DNA of 34,599 nucleotides from Candidatus Methylomirabilota bacterium (lineage in GTDB: Bacteria > Methylomirabilota > Methylomirabilia > Rokubacteriales > CSP1-6), in the NCBI GenBank assembly GCA_035936835.1, contig DASYVT010000088.1, forward strand, positions 1 through 34,599, given 5' to 3'. This document shows, one piece after another, positions 28,458-34,273 of the stretch. The notes below the pieces were generated by a model. It had not been told where the DNA came from, ran no database searches, and was given only the letters and a program-made list of their open reading frames with translations. Within the stretch, counting starts at the first letter, position 1, and every line of letters begins with the position of its first letter. The translations under genes were made by a program, and so were the position numbers.

Positions 28458-29306
28458 CTAACCGAGGCCCCCGCGCAGTCGCGGGTCGGTGACATCGCGA
28501 ATCGAGTCTCCAAAGAGGTTCAGCCCGAACACGGCCAGGCTGATCGCCAGTCCGGGAAAGAATACCATCCAGGGCGCGGTCTCGAGCGCCTGGATTCCGG
28601 CCGTCATCATGCCGCCCCACGAGGGCTCGTCCGGCGGCGCTCCGGCTCCGATGAAGCTCAGGGAGGCTTCCACCACGATGGCGTAGGAGACATTGGTCGT
28701 GACGAGGACGATATAGCCGGCCATGCAGTTGGGGATGAGGTGCCGCGCGATGATGCGCCAGTTCGTGGCCCCGACCGCGCGCGCCGACTCCATGTACGGC
28801 GAGACGATGATGCCGAGGGCGATGGAACGGATGGTACGAGCCGCCGTGGGCGTCAGCAGGACGACGAGCGCGATGATGACGTTGTTCACCGACTGGCCGA
28901 GCGCCGCCATCAGCGCGAGCGCCAGGATGATGGGCGGCAGGGCCATCACGCTGTCCACGACGCGCTGGCTGCCCGTATCGGCGGCGCCGCCGAGGTAGGC
29001 GGTGACGGCGCCCCAGAGCGAGCCCGCCGTGATGCCGAAGACGACGGACACGAGCCCAACGTAGAGGGACAACCGCGCGCCCCAGATCACGCGGCTCAGC
29101 ACGTCGCGCCCGATCTGATCGGTGCCCATGGGAAATTGCGCGCTCGGCGGCAGGTACGGCGAGAAGCTCGCGTCCTTCGGGCCGTGCGGCGCCAGCCGTG
29201 GCGCCAGCACGGCGACCGCGATCAGCACGAGAACGATGAGCCCGCCGGCCGCGCCCAGCGGCTGGCGGCGGAGGAGGTGACCGAGCGCTGCCATCGCCTC
29301 ACGCAT
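28458..29306 (-). CDS. ABC transporter permease, DppC type
   Basis: This 282-residue inner-membrane protein has about six membrane segments. The N-terminal segment (LGAAGGLIVLVLIAVAVLAPRLAPHGP) and the following FPMGTDQIGRDVLSRVIWGARLSL phrase are conserved in DppC/OppC. The EAA coupling loop is SARAVGATNWRIIARHLIPN (about residues 175-194). It overlaps the dppB-type gene by 8 bp and is followed 41 bp later by the binding-protein gene. It forms the channel together with the DppB-type protein. Confidence 0.94.
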   Translation of the reverse strand: MREAMAALGHLLRRQPLGAAGGLIVLVLIAVAVLAPRLAPHGPKDASFSPYLPPSAQFPMGTDQIGRDVLSRVIWGARLSLYVGLVSVVFGITAGSLWGAVTAYLGGAADTGSQRVVDSVMALPPIILALALMAALGQSVNNVIIALVVLLTPTAARTIRSIALGIIVSPYMESARAVGATNWRIIARHLIPNCMAGYIVLVTTNVSYAIVVEASLSFIGAGAPPDEPSWGGMMTAGIQALETAPWMVFFPGLAISLAVFGLNLFGDSIRDVTDPRLRGGLG

Positions 29307-30261
29307 AGTGGATCCGTGGATCGAGCCAGACGTAGAGCAAATCCACCACGAGGTTCACGACCAGGAAGACCACGGCCATGACGAAGACCATGGCCTGGAC
29401 GGTCGGGTAGTCGCGCTGGCTCACGGCCTGGACGAGCGCCGTCCCCATCCCCGGCACGACAAAGATGATCTCCATGATGACGAGCCCGCCCAGAAGCCGG
29501 CCGCCCCACCAGCCGACGAAGGTCACCACGGGCAGGAGCGAGTTCCTGAGCGCGTGGCGGTAGACCACCGCGCGCTCCGACAGACCCTTGGCGCGCGCCG
29601 TGCGCACGTAGTCCTGTCGGATCACCTCGAGCATCTGCGAGCGCGTGAGCCGCGTGATGGGCGCGCTGATGTAGTACGCCTGCGCCAGCGCCGGCCAGAT
29701 CAGCTGCTTGAGGTTCTCCACCGGGTCCTCGGTGAAGGCCACGAACTCGAGCGGCGGGATCCAGTGGAAGACCCGGACGAGCCCGTACAGGATCAGCGCC
29801 CCCGTGACGAAGAGCGGCACGCTCAGGCCGCTCAGGCTCGCGATGCGCGCGAGGTAGTCGAGGGGGCCGTTCTGATGGACGGCGGAGACCACGCCGAGGG
29901 GGATGGCCCAGATCACCGCGATGGCGAGCGTGAGAATGGCCAGCTCCATGGAGCGCGGGAAGCGCTCGCGCAGGATGTCCCAGACCGGCCGGCGCTGCGC
30001 ATAGGACTTCCCGAAATCCCCGCGCACCGCTCCGCCCATCCACGAGAGATACTGGACCATCACCGGCTGGTTCAAGCCGAGCTCCTCGCGGATCTTCTGG
30101 ATCTGCTTCTGCTGGACGCCGCTCGTCTCGGAGCCCGCCTGGTACACGAGGATCTCGGCGATGTCCCCCGGGACCAGCCGCATCAGCACGAAGATCAGCA
30201 TGGACGCCCCGATCAGGGCGGGAATGAAGAGCAGGATCCGGCGGATGATGTACGTGCTCAT
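29299..30261 (-). CDS. ABC transporter permease, DppB type
   Basis: This 320-residue permease begins MSTYIIRRILLFIPALIGASMLIFVLMRLVPGD, the near-universal DppB/OppB opening. The EAA loop is YVRTARAKGLSERAVVYRHALRNSLLP (about residues 222-248). The C-terminus ends VDLLYVWLDPRIHYA, again typical. It is the first gene of a minus-strand dppB-dppC-dppA-dinB operon. No Shine-Dalgarno precedes the ATG, and a promoter-like sequence ends only 13 bases upstream. No DppD/DppF ATPase genes are present on either side. Confidence 0.94.
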   Translation of the reverse strand: MSTYIIRRILLFIPALIGASMLIFVLMRLVPGDIAEILVYQAGSETSGVQQKQIQKIREELGLNQPVMVQYLSWMGGAVRGDFGKSYAQRRPVWDILRERFPRSMELAILTLAIAVIWAIPLGVVSAVHQNGPLDYLARIASLSGLSVPLFVTGALILYGLVRVFHWIPPLEFVAFTEDPVENLKQLIWPALAQAYYISAPITRLTRSQMLEVIRQDYVRTARAKGLSERAVVYRHALRNSLLPVVTFVGWWGGRLLGGLVIMEIIFVVPGMGTALVQAVSQRDYPTVQAMVFVMAVVFLVVNLVVDLLYVWLDPRIHYA

Positions 30262-30274
30262 GCGGTGCGGCCGT

Positions 30275-30304
30275 ATGCTACGGGCGGCGCGTCAGCCGCG
30301 TCAA
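30275..30304 (-). promoter_or_regulatory. Possible promoter of the peptide importer operon, with a near-leaderless start
   Basis: On the minus strand TTGACG (30304 to 30299; five of six) and TAGCAT (30280 to 30275; four of six) are 18 bases apart. The -10 box ends 13 bases before the dppB ATG, which would leave a leader of only a few bases. That fits with the absence of a ribosome site. Confidence 0.35.
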
Positions 30305-30431
30305 GAGCCCCACGTGGCCGGGACAATCGGCTCTCACCGAAGTACATCGATGTCCCGTTCGCCGAGAAGCCTCGCAGATAGGGCGGCGGTAGGTAGTGAT
30401 GCTTTCCGGGCTCCAATATTCCGACTGTACC

Positions 30432-30501
30432 GCCGAACGTCACGAATGAGCCGCGCGACTTTCCAGCTCAGTGTCGCGTCGGCTCCATTCGTTGGTTAGG
30501 C
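30432..30501 (-). other. attC recombination site (downstream of the protease gene)
   Basis: Read on the minus strand the site starts GCCTAAC (consensus RYYYAAC) and ends GTTCGGC (consensus GTTRRRY, one mismatch), 70 bp in all. Between them the arms CGAATGGAGCCGACGCGAC and GTCGCGCGGCTCATTCG pair fully except for two extra bases, a G and an A, on one arm, the extrahelical bases that mark genuine attC sites. It begins 10 bp after the stop of the cassette gene, the usual position. Confidence 0.8.
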
Positions 30502-30511
30502 GTCGCGCCCT

Positions 30512-31339
30512 TCATTTGAGCAGCCCAGGGTTATTCCCAAGATATTCCCGGGCAAATCTGATCGAACGCGCATAACCGATTCCAGTGCTGATGTACTGGT
30601 CGAGGGTTTCAATGATGGCTCTCGTCGCCTGTAGGGGATCGACGCCCATTATCCGCACGGAGCCACTCGACGAAGTTTTGTCGATGTAAACGCGAAGCTC
30701 ACGTAGGCCTTGTGAAATGCCGCCCTCGCGCATGCTCACGATCCCGACCATGTGTCCTTCGCTGTTCAGAAGAGCACCACCGGAGTTACCCTTGTTGATC
30801 GACGCCTGAATAAAGATGAGGGACGACGAACCGTCAAAACCAGAAACCATGCCGTGATGGGTGACCATGCCAGGTGTCGCGAGAGGATAGCCCGAGAAAG
30901 TAACATCGTCGCCGACTGCCAAAACCTCCTTGTCGGATGCCAACTCAACCTTCGCGAAGTTCTTTGTCGGCTTGGTCTTGAGCTTCACAAAGGCGAAATC
31001 CTGAAGCAGCGGACTCGTATCGGCCTGGGTGGGCACGGATACAACGGTGCCGCTGATCGTTTCGCCAGACGGCAGAACCACCTGAAGGTCTGGATAGAGA
31101 GTCCAGTTGACTGTTGGACCCTGAGCCGACAACGCCGCCACGACGTGAAAGCATGTCAGAACGTGCTGGTCGCCAATGAAGGCACCGCTGCCCTTCGAAT
31201 TTCCCGACTGGCTCACAAGCATGACGCCAGAAGTCCGGGACAGCTCAAGAACGTTCATGCCTTGCGCCATGGGACCTCCGGCAGATGAGCATGCCACGAC
31301 ACCAAGAAGACTGGAAAGCAACACTCTCATGGTTTGCAC
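30512..31339 (-). CDS. Trypsin-like serine protease, probable lipoprotein, in an integron-type cassette
   Basis: This 275-residue protein has a signal peptide with a lipobox-like VVAC (C17). The chymotrypsin-fold catalytic triad is visible: H65 in LTCFHVVAAL, D114 in LLQDFAFVKL and S186 in INKGNSGGALL. The following GHMVGIV strand is typical of the S1C/HtrA group. There is no PDZ domain. The C-terminus is a short helical tail. The start is GTG at 31339, with GGAGG nine bases upstream; ATG at 31330 is also possible but lacks a site. The DNA is visibly AT-richer than the flanking chromosome. The gene lies between two attC-like sites, both in the same orientation, so it looks like a captured mobile cassette. 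Confidence 0.88.
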   Translation of the reverse strand: MQTMRVLLSSLLGVVACSSAGGPMAQGMNVLELSRTSGVMLVSQSGNSKGSGAFIGDQHVLTCFHVVAALSAQGPTVNWTLYPDLQVVLPSGETISGTVVSVPTQADTSPLLQDFAFVKLKTKPTKNFAKVELASDKEVLAVGDDVTFSGYPLATPGMVTHHGMVSGFDGSSSLIFIQASINKGNSGGALLNSEGHMVGIVSMREGGISQGLRELRVYIDKTSSSGSVRIMGVDPLQATRAIIETLDQYISTGIGYARSIRFAREYLGNNPGLLK

Positions 31340-31367
31340 AGGTTGGTGCCTCCACTGGATCGGCGAC

Positions 31368-31432
31368 GTCTAACGCAGAAGTAACCGGCCTGCGCAGCTT
31401 TTCGCGCAGGCCGGTTGACTGCCGAGTTGGGC
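31368..31432 (-). other. attC recombination site (between the two cassette genes)
   Basis: On the minus strand it starts GCCCAAC (RYYYAAC) and ends GTTAGAC (GTTRRRY), both perfect matches, over 65 bp. The inner arms AACCGGCCTGCGC and GCGCAGGCCGGTT pair perfectly over 13 bp. An outer GCAG/CTGC stem is separated from them by an unpaired spacer (TC against ACTT), the layout of an attC hairpin. It lies 30 bp downstream of the stop of the 204-residue cassette gene. Confidence 0.85.
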
Positions 31433-31462
31433 ATGGGTTGGCTGGAGATCAATTTCATTCCG

Positions 31463-32077
31463 CTACTTCCCCCCGATCACCAACACAAACTGAGCTTCAG
31501 GAAAGAAGTCCGGCTTTATTGGGCTAGTCCCGAACTGGACGCCAATGCCTGAGAGGATCTTTGATAGCTCAATGGCTGCTGGCGAAATATTTTTTGTGTC
31601 TCTCACTCCGATATGAACTCCAATGACGTCGGGTGTGAGGCCTGGGATTGGCAATGCCAAATCTGACGCACAACCAGCCGCCTTCAGCGCTTTGACAAAG
31701 TCAGTTGCATACACTTGAGCTTCGTGGTTGCTGTTTGCTGCCGTCACATGAACCATGGGGAGTGAGTGGCAGGATTTACGAGCCATGACTGTTAGCGCGG
31801 CACTTTGCTCAGAACTCAGGTGACGACCTTTTACGTTCTGTTCTATTTTTGAAAGTTTTTCGCGCGCTTCCTGTTGCTCACGTTGGGCCGCGTCCAGTTG
31901 CAGTTTCAGTTCGGCCTCACGCTCGAGTTGGACCTTGGAGGACAACTCACTAGCTCGGCGGTCAACGTAATAACGAATGCCAGTGGCTAACGGGACAAAT
32001 ATCGCGAAAATTATTGTAGCCCACAGCAAAGTGTGGGATAGCGACTTGAGGCTATCGATGCTGTTCCACATTTCCAT
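31463..32077 (-). CDS. Membrane-anchored coiled-coil protein of unknown function, in an integron-type cassette
   Basis: This 204-residue protein has one membrane helix (about residues 16-34, LLWATIIFAIFVPLATG), a charged coiled coil (about 42-82, rich in E, Q, K and R), and a C-terminal alpha/beta domain of about 115 residues that starts RHLSSEQSAALTVMA and ends FVLVIGGK. That C-terminal pattern (a helix after a 'Q..AL' start, an EA.VYA..F...L..AG unit, and a final VLVIG.K strand) recurs in uncharacterised anchored proteins that I recall, but I know no function. The sequence is AT-richer than its surroundings: 25 of 60 bases are G or C at 31561-31620, against 46 of 60 at 33541-33600. No clear ribosome site is seen before the ATG at 32077; ATG 32071 is an alternative. 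Confidence 0.75.
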   Translation of the reverse strand: MEMWNSIDSLKSLSHTLLWATIIFAIFVPLATGIRYYVDRRASELSSKVQLEREAELKLQLDAAQREQQEAREKLSKIEQNVKGRHLSSEQSAALTVMARKSCHSLPMVHVTAANSNHEAQVYATDFVKALKAAGCASDLALPIPGLTPDVIGVHIGVRDTKNISPAAIELSKILSGIGVQFGTSPIKPDFFPEAQFVLVIGGK

Positions 32078-32128
32078 AAATTTCTATCGATATCGGTTGC
32101 TGATCGGTGCGGAGACATAGCTGTGAAT

Positions 32129-32251
32129 GCCCAACTAGAATTCGGGTACGGGATAGGCTGATCCGCGTAATACCGCAACCCATGCGAGATCCTGCAGCCT
32201 ATCGGGATCCCAAGTGGCCGGCTGGCCCCCTTCCGAATCGGCAGGTTGAGC
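32129..32251 (-). other. Possible third attC (or attI-like) site upstream of the first cassette gene
   Basis: On the minus strand GCTCAAC (32251) and GTTGGGC (32135) match the two core consensus sequences. Between them TTCGG/CCGAA and GATAGGCTG/CAGCCTATC can pair. The arms are unequal in length (29 bases against 6 between the two stems), so the fold is poorer than in the other two sites. The position, just ahead of the first cassette gene, is where another site is expected. Confidence 0.35.
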
Positions 32252-32306
32252 CTGAGTGGGCCGGCCCTCCGCGGTAGGGATATGCCACCAGGCGCTGCAG
32301 TCTATC
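32192..32306. repeat. Short direct repeats between the cassette region and the synthetase gene
   Basis: CTGCAGCCTATC at 32192-32203 recurs as CTGCAGTCTATC at 32295-32306, with an inverted partial copy GATAGGCTG at 32152-32160. No gene is visible in 32078-32332. These repeats may mark the edge of the inserted segment. Confidence 0.45.
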
Positions 32307-32332
32307 CTGCGGAGTTCCTAGCTTACCATAGC

Positions 32333-34273
32333 CTAGCTCGCCTCGGCGATGGCCTTGATGCCGCCCGGGTTGTCCAGGGAGGAGAGATCGCCGGGATCCT
32401 TGCCGAGATGGGTGGCGCGGATCACGCGGCGCATGATCTTGGCGCTGCGGGTCTTGGGCAGCTCGGCGGCGAAGAGCACGCGCTCGGGCTTGAGCGCCTT
32501 GCCCATTTGCCTGGCGATAAGATCCGAGAGCTCAGCGCGGAGGGCTTCGCTGGGCTTCGCATCCGGGCGCAGCACCGCGAAGCACACCACAGCTTCGCCC
32601 TTGACCTTGTGCGGCACGCCGACCGCCGCGGCTTCGGCGACGGACGGATGGCTCACGAGCACCGACTCGACCTCCGCCGGGCCGACTCGTTTGCCCGCGA
32701 TCTTCAGCGTGTCGTCGGAGCGGCCCGTGACGAACCAGAAACCGTCCTCATCGATATAGGCCCAGTCGCCGTGCACCCAGACATTCGGCCAGCGCGACCA
32801 GTAGGTCTCGATGTAGCGGTCGGGGTCCTTCCAGAAGCCCGCCGTCATGCCGGGAAAGGGCCTGGTGATGACGAGCTCGCCCACCTGTCCGCGCACCGGC
32901 TTGCCGTCCTCGCCGAAGACGTCGGCGGCGATGCCCGGGCAGGGGCCGTTGAATGAGCAGGGCTTGATGGGCGCGATCGGGAAGGACGTCAGGATGCCGC
33001 CCGAGATCTCCGTGCCGCCGGAGTAGTTAATGATGGGCACCCTGCCGCCCCCGACGTGCTCGAAGACCCAGCGGTAGGGCTCGGGATTCCACGGCTCCCC
33101 CGTCGAGCCGAAGATGCGAAGCCGCGAGAGATCGTGGGCACGCGGCCACTCGGTGCCGTGAGGCATGAGCGCGCGCACCGCCGTCGGCGACAGGCCCATG
33201 ACCGTGACCTGGTGCCGCTCGGCGACCGCCCAGAGCCTGTCCGGCTTGGGATAGTCGGGCGTGCCTTCGAAGAGGACCAGCGTCGCGCCGTTGGTCAGCC
33301 CACCCAGGATGAGGATCGTGCCCATGACCCACCCCATGTCGGTGAGCCAGAAGAAGCGGTCATCGGCGCCGAGGTCGAAGAAGTAGGCCGCATCGTGGCC
33401 GATCTTCATCTGGAGCCCGCCCTGGGTCAGCACCACGCCCTTGGGCTTGCCCGTCGTCCCCGACGTGTAGGTGATGCAGCAGGGCCTGTCGGCGTCCACC
33501 GGCAGCGCCGGACACTCGGCCGACTCGTGCGCGAGCGCCTCGTGCCACCACACGTCGCGCCCCGGCGTCCACGGCACGTCGCGGCCGAGGCGCTTGAGCA
33601 CGAGCAGGTGCTTGACCGATGGCGACAGCGTCGCCGCCTCGTCGGCGACCTCCTTCATCTTGACCGTCTGGCCGCGGCGCGGGAAACCATCGGCGGTGAT
33701 CAGCACCTTGGCGTCGCAGTCCTGCAGGCGCGCCGCGACCGCCTGGGCGCCGTAGCCGGAGAACGAGGGCGAGTAGATGGCGCCGATCCGGCAGATGGCC
33801 ATGATCGCGATGGCCGCCTCGGCGGACATCGGAAGGAACAGCCCCACGGAATCCCCCGCCCCGACACCGAGCCGCGTGAGGACATTGGCCAGGCGGTTGA
33901 CGTCGCGCGACATCTCCCGGTAGGTCCACGTGCGGACCTCGCCGTCTTCCGCCTCCCAGACGATGGCGGCCTGCTCGCCGCGGCCGGCGTCCACGTGGCG
34001 GTCCACGCAGTTGTCGGAGAGATTCATGAGGCCGCCCTCGAACCAGCGCGGCCAGGCGATCCCGCGCGAGGTGTCGAGCACGCGGGTGTAGGGCTTCATC
34101 CAGCGGAAGCCCAAGTCCTTCGAGACGGCGTCCCAGTACCACTCTGGGTCGTCCACGCTCCGCCGCTGGAGCGCGTCCAGCGAGGCGAGCCCGTGGGCGC
34201 GCATGAACTTCGTCAGGCGCGCGCGCTCGATGACCTCGGGGGTTGGGCGCCAGATGATCTCGCTGTCAGTCAT
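32333..34273 (-). CDS. Acetyl-CoA synthetase-like AMP-forming acyl-CoA ligase
   Basis: This 646-residue enzyme of the ANL superfamily activates a carboxylic acid to its CoA thioester with ATP. An ACAS_N-type N-terminal region includes DDPEWYWDAVSKDLGFRW (residues 41-58). The phosphate loop is YTSGTTGKPKG (269-279). NYSGGTEISGG is the A5 motif, YWSRWPNVWVHGDWAYIDEDG the adenine and ribose binding region, and TGRSDDTLKIAGKRVGPAEVE the hinge. K612 in TRSAKIMRR is the catalytic lysine. The length matches acetyl-CoA synthetase, but residues that fix acyl size cannot be judged by eye; propionate, acetoacetate or another acid is possible. It is transcribed away from the TPP enzyme gene. Confidence 0.93.
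   Translation of the reverse strand: MTDSEIIWRPTPEVIERARLTKFMRAHGLASLDALQRRSVDDPEWYWDAVSKDLGFRWMKPYTRVLDTSRGIAWPRWFEGGLMNLSDNCVDRHVDAGRGEQAAIVWEAEDGEVRTWTYREMSRDVNRLANVLTRLGVGAGDSVGLFLPMSAEAAIAIMAICRIGAIYSPSFSGYGAQAVAARLQDCDAKVLITADGFPRRGQTVKMKEVADEAATLSPSVKHLLVLKRLGRDVPWTPGRDVWWHEALAHESAECPALPVDADRPCCITYTSGTTGKPKGVVLTQGGLQMKIGHDAAYFFDLGADDRFFWLTDMGWVMGTILILGGLTNGATLVLFEGTPDYPKPDRLWAVAERHQVTVMGLSPTAVRALMPHGTEWPRAHDLSRLRIFGSTGEPWNPEPYRWVFEHVGGGRVPIINYSGGTEISGGILTSFPIAPIKPCSFNGPCPGIAADVFGEDGKPVRGQVGELVITRPFPGMTAGFWKDPDRYIETYWSRWPNVWVHGDWAYIDEDGFWFVTGRSDDTLKIAGKRVGPAEVESVLVSHPSVAEAAAVGVPHKVKGEAVVCFAVLRPDAKPSEALRAELSDLIARQMGKALKPERVLFAAELPKTRSAKIMRRVIRATHLGKDPGDLSSLDNPGGIKAIAEAS

Follow-up and report, generated by a model that had tools for sequence, protein, structure and literature searches.

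Clusters of attC sites lacking an integrase (CALINs) are usually taken as debris or as off-target insertions. The locus described here, in the genome of an uncultured bacterium of the Rokubacteria clade, raises the question whether such an array may instead be an integron that has lost its integrase gene, and whose cassettes may be served from elsewhere. The DNA studied, referred to as the window, is the whole of contig C88 (34,599 bp); the genome (G000) amounts to 4.1 Mb in 236 contigs and is rated 99.9% complete. A preliminary description of the window had pointed to two minus-strand genes, each followed by an attC-like site, and had labelled the region a CALIN. All features of the locus given below lie on the minus strand.

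The two cassettes and their attC sites

The first cassette consists of a gene for 204 aa (31463-32077) and a 65-nt attC (31368-31432), the second of a gene for 275 aa (30512-31339) and a 70-nt attC (30432-30501). The former site has R'' GCCCAAC and R' GTTAGAC, and starts 31 nt past the stop codon of its gene; the latter has R'' GCCTAAC and R' GTTCGGC, starts 11 nt past the stop codon, and features extrahelical bases at both bulge positions of the attC model. The traits by which attC sites are recognized, namely RYYYAAC and GTTRRRY ends, imperfect arms and extrahelical bases, are found in the C88 sites. The end motifs had been noticed before, and hold for both sites except at one base: GTTCGGC has one mismatch to GTTRRRY, a variant which also occurs at intI-adjacent sites.

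Reference attC sites were taken from arrays beside IntI genes in G000 and related genomes; 26 of the 28 used form 15-20 of the 20 base pairs in the model, fall into one of three registers and bulge at two constant positions. A covariance model of 15 attC from intI-adjacent arrays, none of them from the window, assigned 46.7 bits (E 5e-10) to 30432-30501 and 28.9 bits (E 2e-5) to 31368-31432, the latter scoring lower because its outer stem is irregular, while everything else in the window stayed below 13 bits. The check suggested in the preliminary description, performed with a model of our own instead of that of IntegronFinder, thus recovered both sites where they had been placed. Their orientation is also that of the cassette genes, as claimed, since the plus strand of either site scores just 11-13 bits. 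In an anchored-stem scan of the window the two sites scored 17.2 (30432-30501) and 16.8 (31368-31432), the next best candidate 9.4; no site of 16 or more was found in control sets of 250 kb of real non-integron DNA and 6 Mb of Markov-simulated DNA. Similar sites exist in other genomes, at 87% over 62 bp for 31368-31432 (G027:C36) and at 83% for 30432-30501 (G059:C94). Both C88 attC sites are real.

Low GC and open, compact genes are usual cassette traits, and both cargo genes fit: their GC content is 0.56 (275 aa) and 0.51 (204 aa), against 67-69% in the flanks, which agrees with the AT-richness initially reported. The 275-aa protein is a trypsin/HtrA-type serine protease (PF13365, 76 bits), similar to DegQ/DegP; its N-terminus is lipoprotein-like, with a VVAC lipobox-like motif, and the protein has an apparent H-D-S triad, motif and triad both being recognized by eye. 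The array of contig C123 contains another protease from this superfamily, distinct from the first and predicted to be secreted. The 204-aa protein, of no known family, has an N-terminal membrane helix, a coiled coil and a small C-terminal domain; no relative was found in genome_contigs, viral_contigs or the other 98 genomes searched, and an AlphaFold model from the single sequence (mean pLDDT 66) was set aside. Elsewhere, similar substrate-binding proteins, ending in PSLLLRADxxxE or alike, turn up repeatedly as cassettes, in no fewer than four arrays (L204:8052-9098, L202:7539-8549, L202:9973-11061, L199:6217-7272, L011:11194-12285); one of them matches a TrpX-type ABC model. An Rfam scan of the insert region gave no match, and consensus scans for promoters and terminators in the insert did not rise above shuffled sequence.

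The head of the array and the insertion site

Searching G000 with the insert returned one other match, C123:58610-58689 (78% over 80 bp, E 3.5e-10), which reaches up to the first cassette and is separated by about 150 bp from the full-length integron integrase gene before it. The DNA 3' of IntI, aligned for 18 loci, contains a common attI, which ends in CGAATTCTAGTT|RGGC or variants, and the C88 segment fits this alignment, upstream repeat included. The attI core was placed at 32129-32208 by similarity to intI-adjacent attI and by an attI HMM (12 attI from other genomes), which matches 32129-32203 (E 1.5e-5); its crossover box, GTTGGGC, occupies 32129-32135. The core is thus homologous to DNA lying between intI and the first cassette, with GTT at its end, as expected of an attI. 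Its best match is in G001:C96 (86% over 74 bp), and the stretch is also matched in some dozen further genomes within the family. The adjoining 32209-32332 aligns with intI-attI spacers (69% over 175 nt to G073:C131); this spacer remnant includes a second GGATAGACTGCAG-type repeat, contains no intI codons and borders directly on the upstream host gene, at its stop codon.

In the preliminary description, cassette-array DNA ran as far as 32251, an end that has to be revised. The segment 32129-32251 was considered as a third attC and rejected, having no match to the attC model and being homologous to attI; by this homology, it is attI plus part of the integrase-side spacer. Because attI heads the array, we read C88 as an integron minus its integrase, not as loose cassettes: on sequence grounds, it is an integrase-less integron, with attI and two cassettes between two host genes. 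The CALIN label is correct by the IntegronFinder rule (at least two attC, no intI nearby), the contig having no intI match, just as no integrase had been seen in the window; it is incomplete, in that an attI is present. IntegronFinder seeks attI only for class 1 integrons (PMC9024848). A complete integron would have intI adjoining attI and cassettes, and zero intI codons are left here; an attG-type array would start at a chromosomal G|T with no attI, and at C88 there is an attI and the insert overruns both cassette ends.

The upstream host gene is of the acyl-CoA synthetase type (32333-34273; 96% aa identity in G001), the downstream one encodes an ABC transporter permease (29299-30261; 93% DNA identity with G001:C122). 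Partial copies of the synthetase gene exist elsewhere, in G000 (L067:5150-5712 on C20; codons 1-92, 96%) and in G001 (L068:8778-9126 on C145; codons 529-645, 85%). A comparison with relatives had been proposed: in G001, of the same genus and 93% identical in DNA here, the insert is absent, and 20 bp separate the synthetase stop from the permease start. The insert measures about 2.05 kb, made up of spacer remnant, attI, two cassettes and, past the last attC, a 170-bp tail (30262-30431) absent from G001, although its last 17-20 bp or so match the G001 permease leader. The tail, which carries a 61-aa open frame, has no relative in any sequence set searched.

The flanking stop codon and the leader have both stayed intact, which makes insertion at C88 in this lineage the most straightforward reading of the alignment; loss in G001 is a possible alternative, only two genomes having this gene order. 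The array on C46 is, like that on C88, absent from the matching G001 locus. At the insert ends no IS or terminal inverted repeats were seen by eye, and short end repeats (the 5-bp GTAAG at both ends of C46, only TAG at C88) are too short to use; no common right end was found among the G000 arrays.

Integrases, attI sites and cassette turnover

The sole intact intI of G000 lies on C123 (57510-58454; 318 codons, full length), scores 460 bits (cut-off 265) and encodes, by eye, the usual tyrosine-recombinase residues. The closest named relative of the integrase is that of Candidatus Rokubacteria GWC2_70_16 (83% identity), which makes it very probable that the host belongs to this clade; the layout in the clade is intI, attI and cassettes, in one direction. 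The covariance model detected about 35 attC over 13 contigs of G000; the search of the remaining genome, also proposed beforehand, produced both an integrase and further sites. Arrays on C88, C123, C147, C224, C114, C162, C31 and C46 are headed by attI-like sites, and weaker attI matches head those on C141 and C212, for about ten attI-led arrays overall. Upstream of attI, intI remnants are retained on C141 (at least 160 codons, up to the contig end), C224 (58) and C147 (36); on C31, a remnant of about 20 codons has an E of 0.009 alone, but lies at the expected position and is aligned in G001 too. No intI codons precede attI on C88, C114, C162, C46 and C212. On C147, intI codon 282 is fused to DNA that matches what lies upstream of intI in G001:C156; going by this junction, intI loss there looks like an internal deletion.

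G001 similarly has one full-length intI (C156), along with attI loci retaining 212, 161, 92, 45, 18 or no intI codons. A second attI type is found at some G000 loci; its cognate full-length IntI is intact in G001, but no such gene turned up in G000. Copies of the 200-bp intI-attI spacer belonging to this second type, 92-96% identical, are scattered among several loci in two species, whether intI is present there or absent (L199:7297-7500, L204:7823-8025, L242:4681-4884, L241:4182-4399). Within the C162 array a reverse-oriented transposase-like gene (L202:8605-9801) separates a cassette gene from its attC. The IntI gene of G043 is split (L084:9654-11932), codons 1-31 and 29-315 being 1.3 kb apart, a layout that suggests insertion accompanied by a short duplication. 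An integron integrase of the same environmental type, 65% identical, comes from a contig (L103) labelled as a Klebsiella pneumoniae MAG, probably a mislabelled bin.

Loci shared between sister species bear on whether attI sites without a functional intI are still used. C114 and G001:C6 have 1,997 bp in common (94% identity); this similarity stops, to the base, at the attI crossover (GAGCGTT), beyond which the two differ, and neither species retains any intI residue there. C31 and G001:C152, each left with 18-20 intI codons, are alike over 4.4 kb (91%) up to 10 nt or less from the crossover; past it 2.0 and 3.3 kb differ, after which 4.8 kb are common again. Similarity also breaks at the attI crossover between C141 and C64, and within about 11 nt of it between C147 and C29, where it seemingly resumes, by eye, at the R' end of the last attC. 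Because the truncated state is common to both species, intI was lost before they split and the cassettes changed afterwards. This comparison suggests that cassettes at such attI sites are still exchanged, and an IntI acting in trans would be the simplest cause. Part of the differences could come from a longer ancestral array having lost different parts in the two species; deletion exactly at att sites would likewise require IntI in trans. Turnover was seen at sibling loci only, the C88 array being without a counterpart array in other genomes.

Interpretation and relation to known systems

That IntI recombines folded attC sites with crossover at G|TT is established for integrons. The best explanation of the locus, which we regard as probable, is an integrase-less integron at C88 whose attI is most likely served in trans. 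Considering the sibling loci and the similarity of the attI sites, the C123 IntI, as the sole intact one, would act in trans on the C88 attI, and may serve the other intI-less attI of G000 in the same way; incoming cassette circles would recombine through their folded single-stranded attC at the G|TT of attI. Against service by this one enzyme stands the second attI type at some of the sibling loci. Judging from direction and adjacency, transcription starting at the upstream host gene would probably run on into the cassettes.

Three other explanations were weighed. If the sites were hairpins formed by chance next to ordinary accessory genes of high AT content, the frequency of palindromes in GC-rich DNA could account for them, but the empty control sets, the E values obtained with the covariance model and the adjoining attI leave this a negligible likelihood. 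A CALIN could also arise when an IntI encoded elsewhere in the genome inserts single cassettes off target, in the attG manner, a route proposed for CALINs in general (PMC8618304) and for which G000 does have the intact enzyme. Cassette insertion would not, however, bring an attI and integrase-side spacer to the head of the array, and the 170 bp or so past the last attC also belong to the insert, so that this route appears very improbable.

More weight, though still as an unlikely case, is given to a dead relic, in which intI and attI function were lost and the C88 array is frozen and decaying. The lack of intI at C88, an attI just 78-86% like its nearest relatives and the reported stability of Xanthomonas arrays after integrase inactivation (PMC8618304) would agree with it; on the other hand, both cassette genes are open, both attC have kept their paired arms, and sister loci without intI swapped cassettes after the species split. 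Beyond the preferred reading of an integrase-less integron served in trans, a wider proposal is held tentatively, and we lean slightly against it: the Rokubacteria clade may possess a distributed integron, with scattered attI, mostly without intI yet kept, one or few integrases acting in trans, and recently inserted units at C88 and C46. If so, cassettes could be placed behind several host genes; and, had C88 and C46 been recently inserted into short intergenic gaps, the attI-led unit would itself be mobile without intI.

Several elements of this picture have already been described, namely CALINs, which a recent survey found about as common as complete integrons (PMC9024848), intI loss, trans capture from CALINs and attI downstream of intI (PMC9024848, PMC9668308, PMC8618304). 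The host clade is outside the list of integron-bearing phyla of a 2021 review (PMC8618304), and in the open-access literature we found no description of integrons in the Rokubacteria clade, or of any genome in which attI-led arrays without intI are numerous. What the present case contributes is an identifiable attI at the head of a CALIN-like array, and sibling loci at which intI was lost before the species split and cassettes then changed from the attI crossover on; with these two, service of orphan attI sites in trans becomes directly testable.

The closest likeness is to sedentary chromosomal integrons with attI downstream of intI, as described in archaea (PMC9668308), with which C88 shares attI, cassettes, attC, gene orientation and the layout of its clade; it differs in having no intI in cis and in sitting in a gap between host genes. 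Like the CALINs of the IntegronFinder classification (PMC9024848), C88 has at least two attC on a contig without intI; unlike them it has a recognizable attI, in a genome with many attI-led loci and turnover at sibling loci. The attG insertions of Loot et al. (2024), as cited in PMC12901181, occur outside integrons and likewise put cassettes into the chromosome at some distance from the integrase; C88 differs by its attI and by insert junctions which are not at an attC crossover. In the inactivated Xanthomonas integrons (summarised in PMC8618304) the integrase was similarly lost and the array kept; those arrays are reported as stable, whereas the sibling arrays of G000 changed after intI loss.
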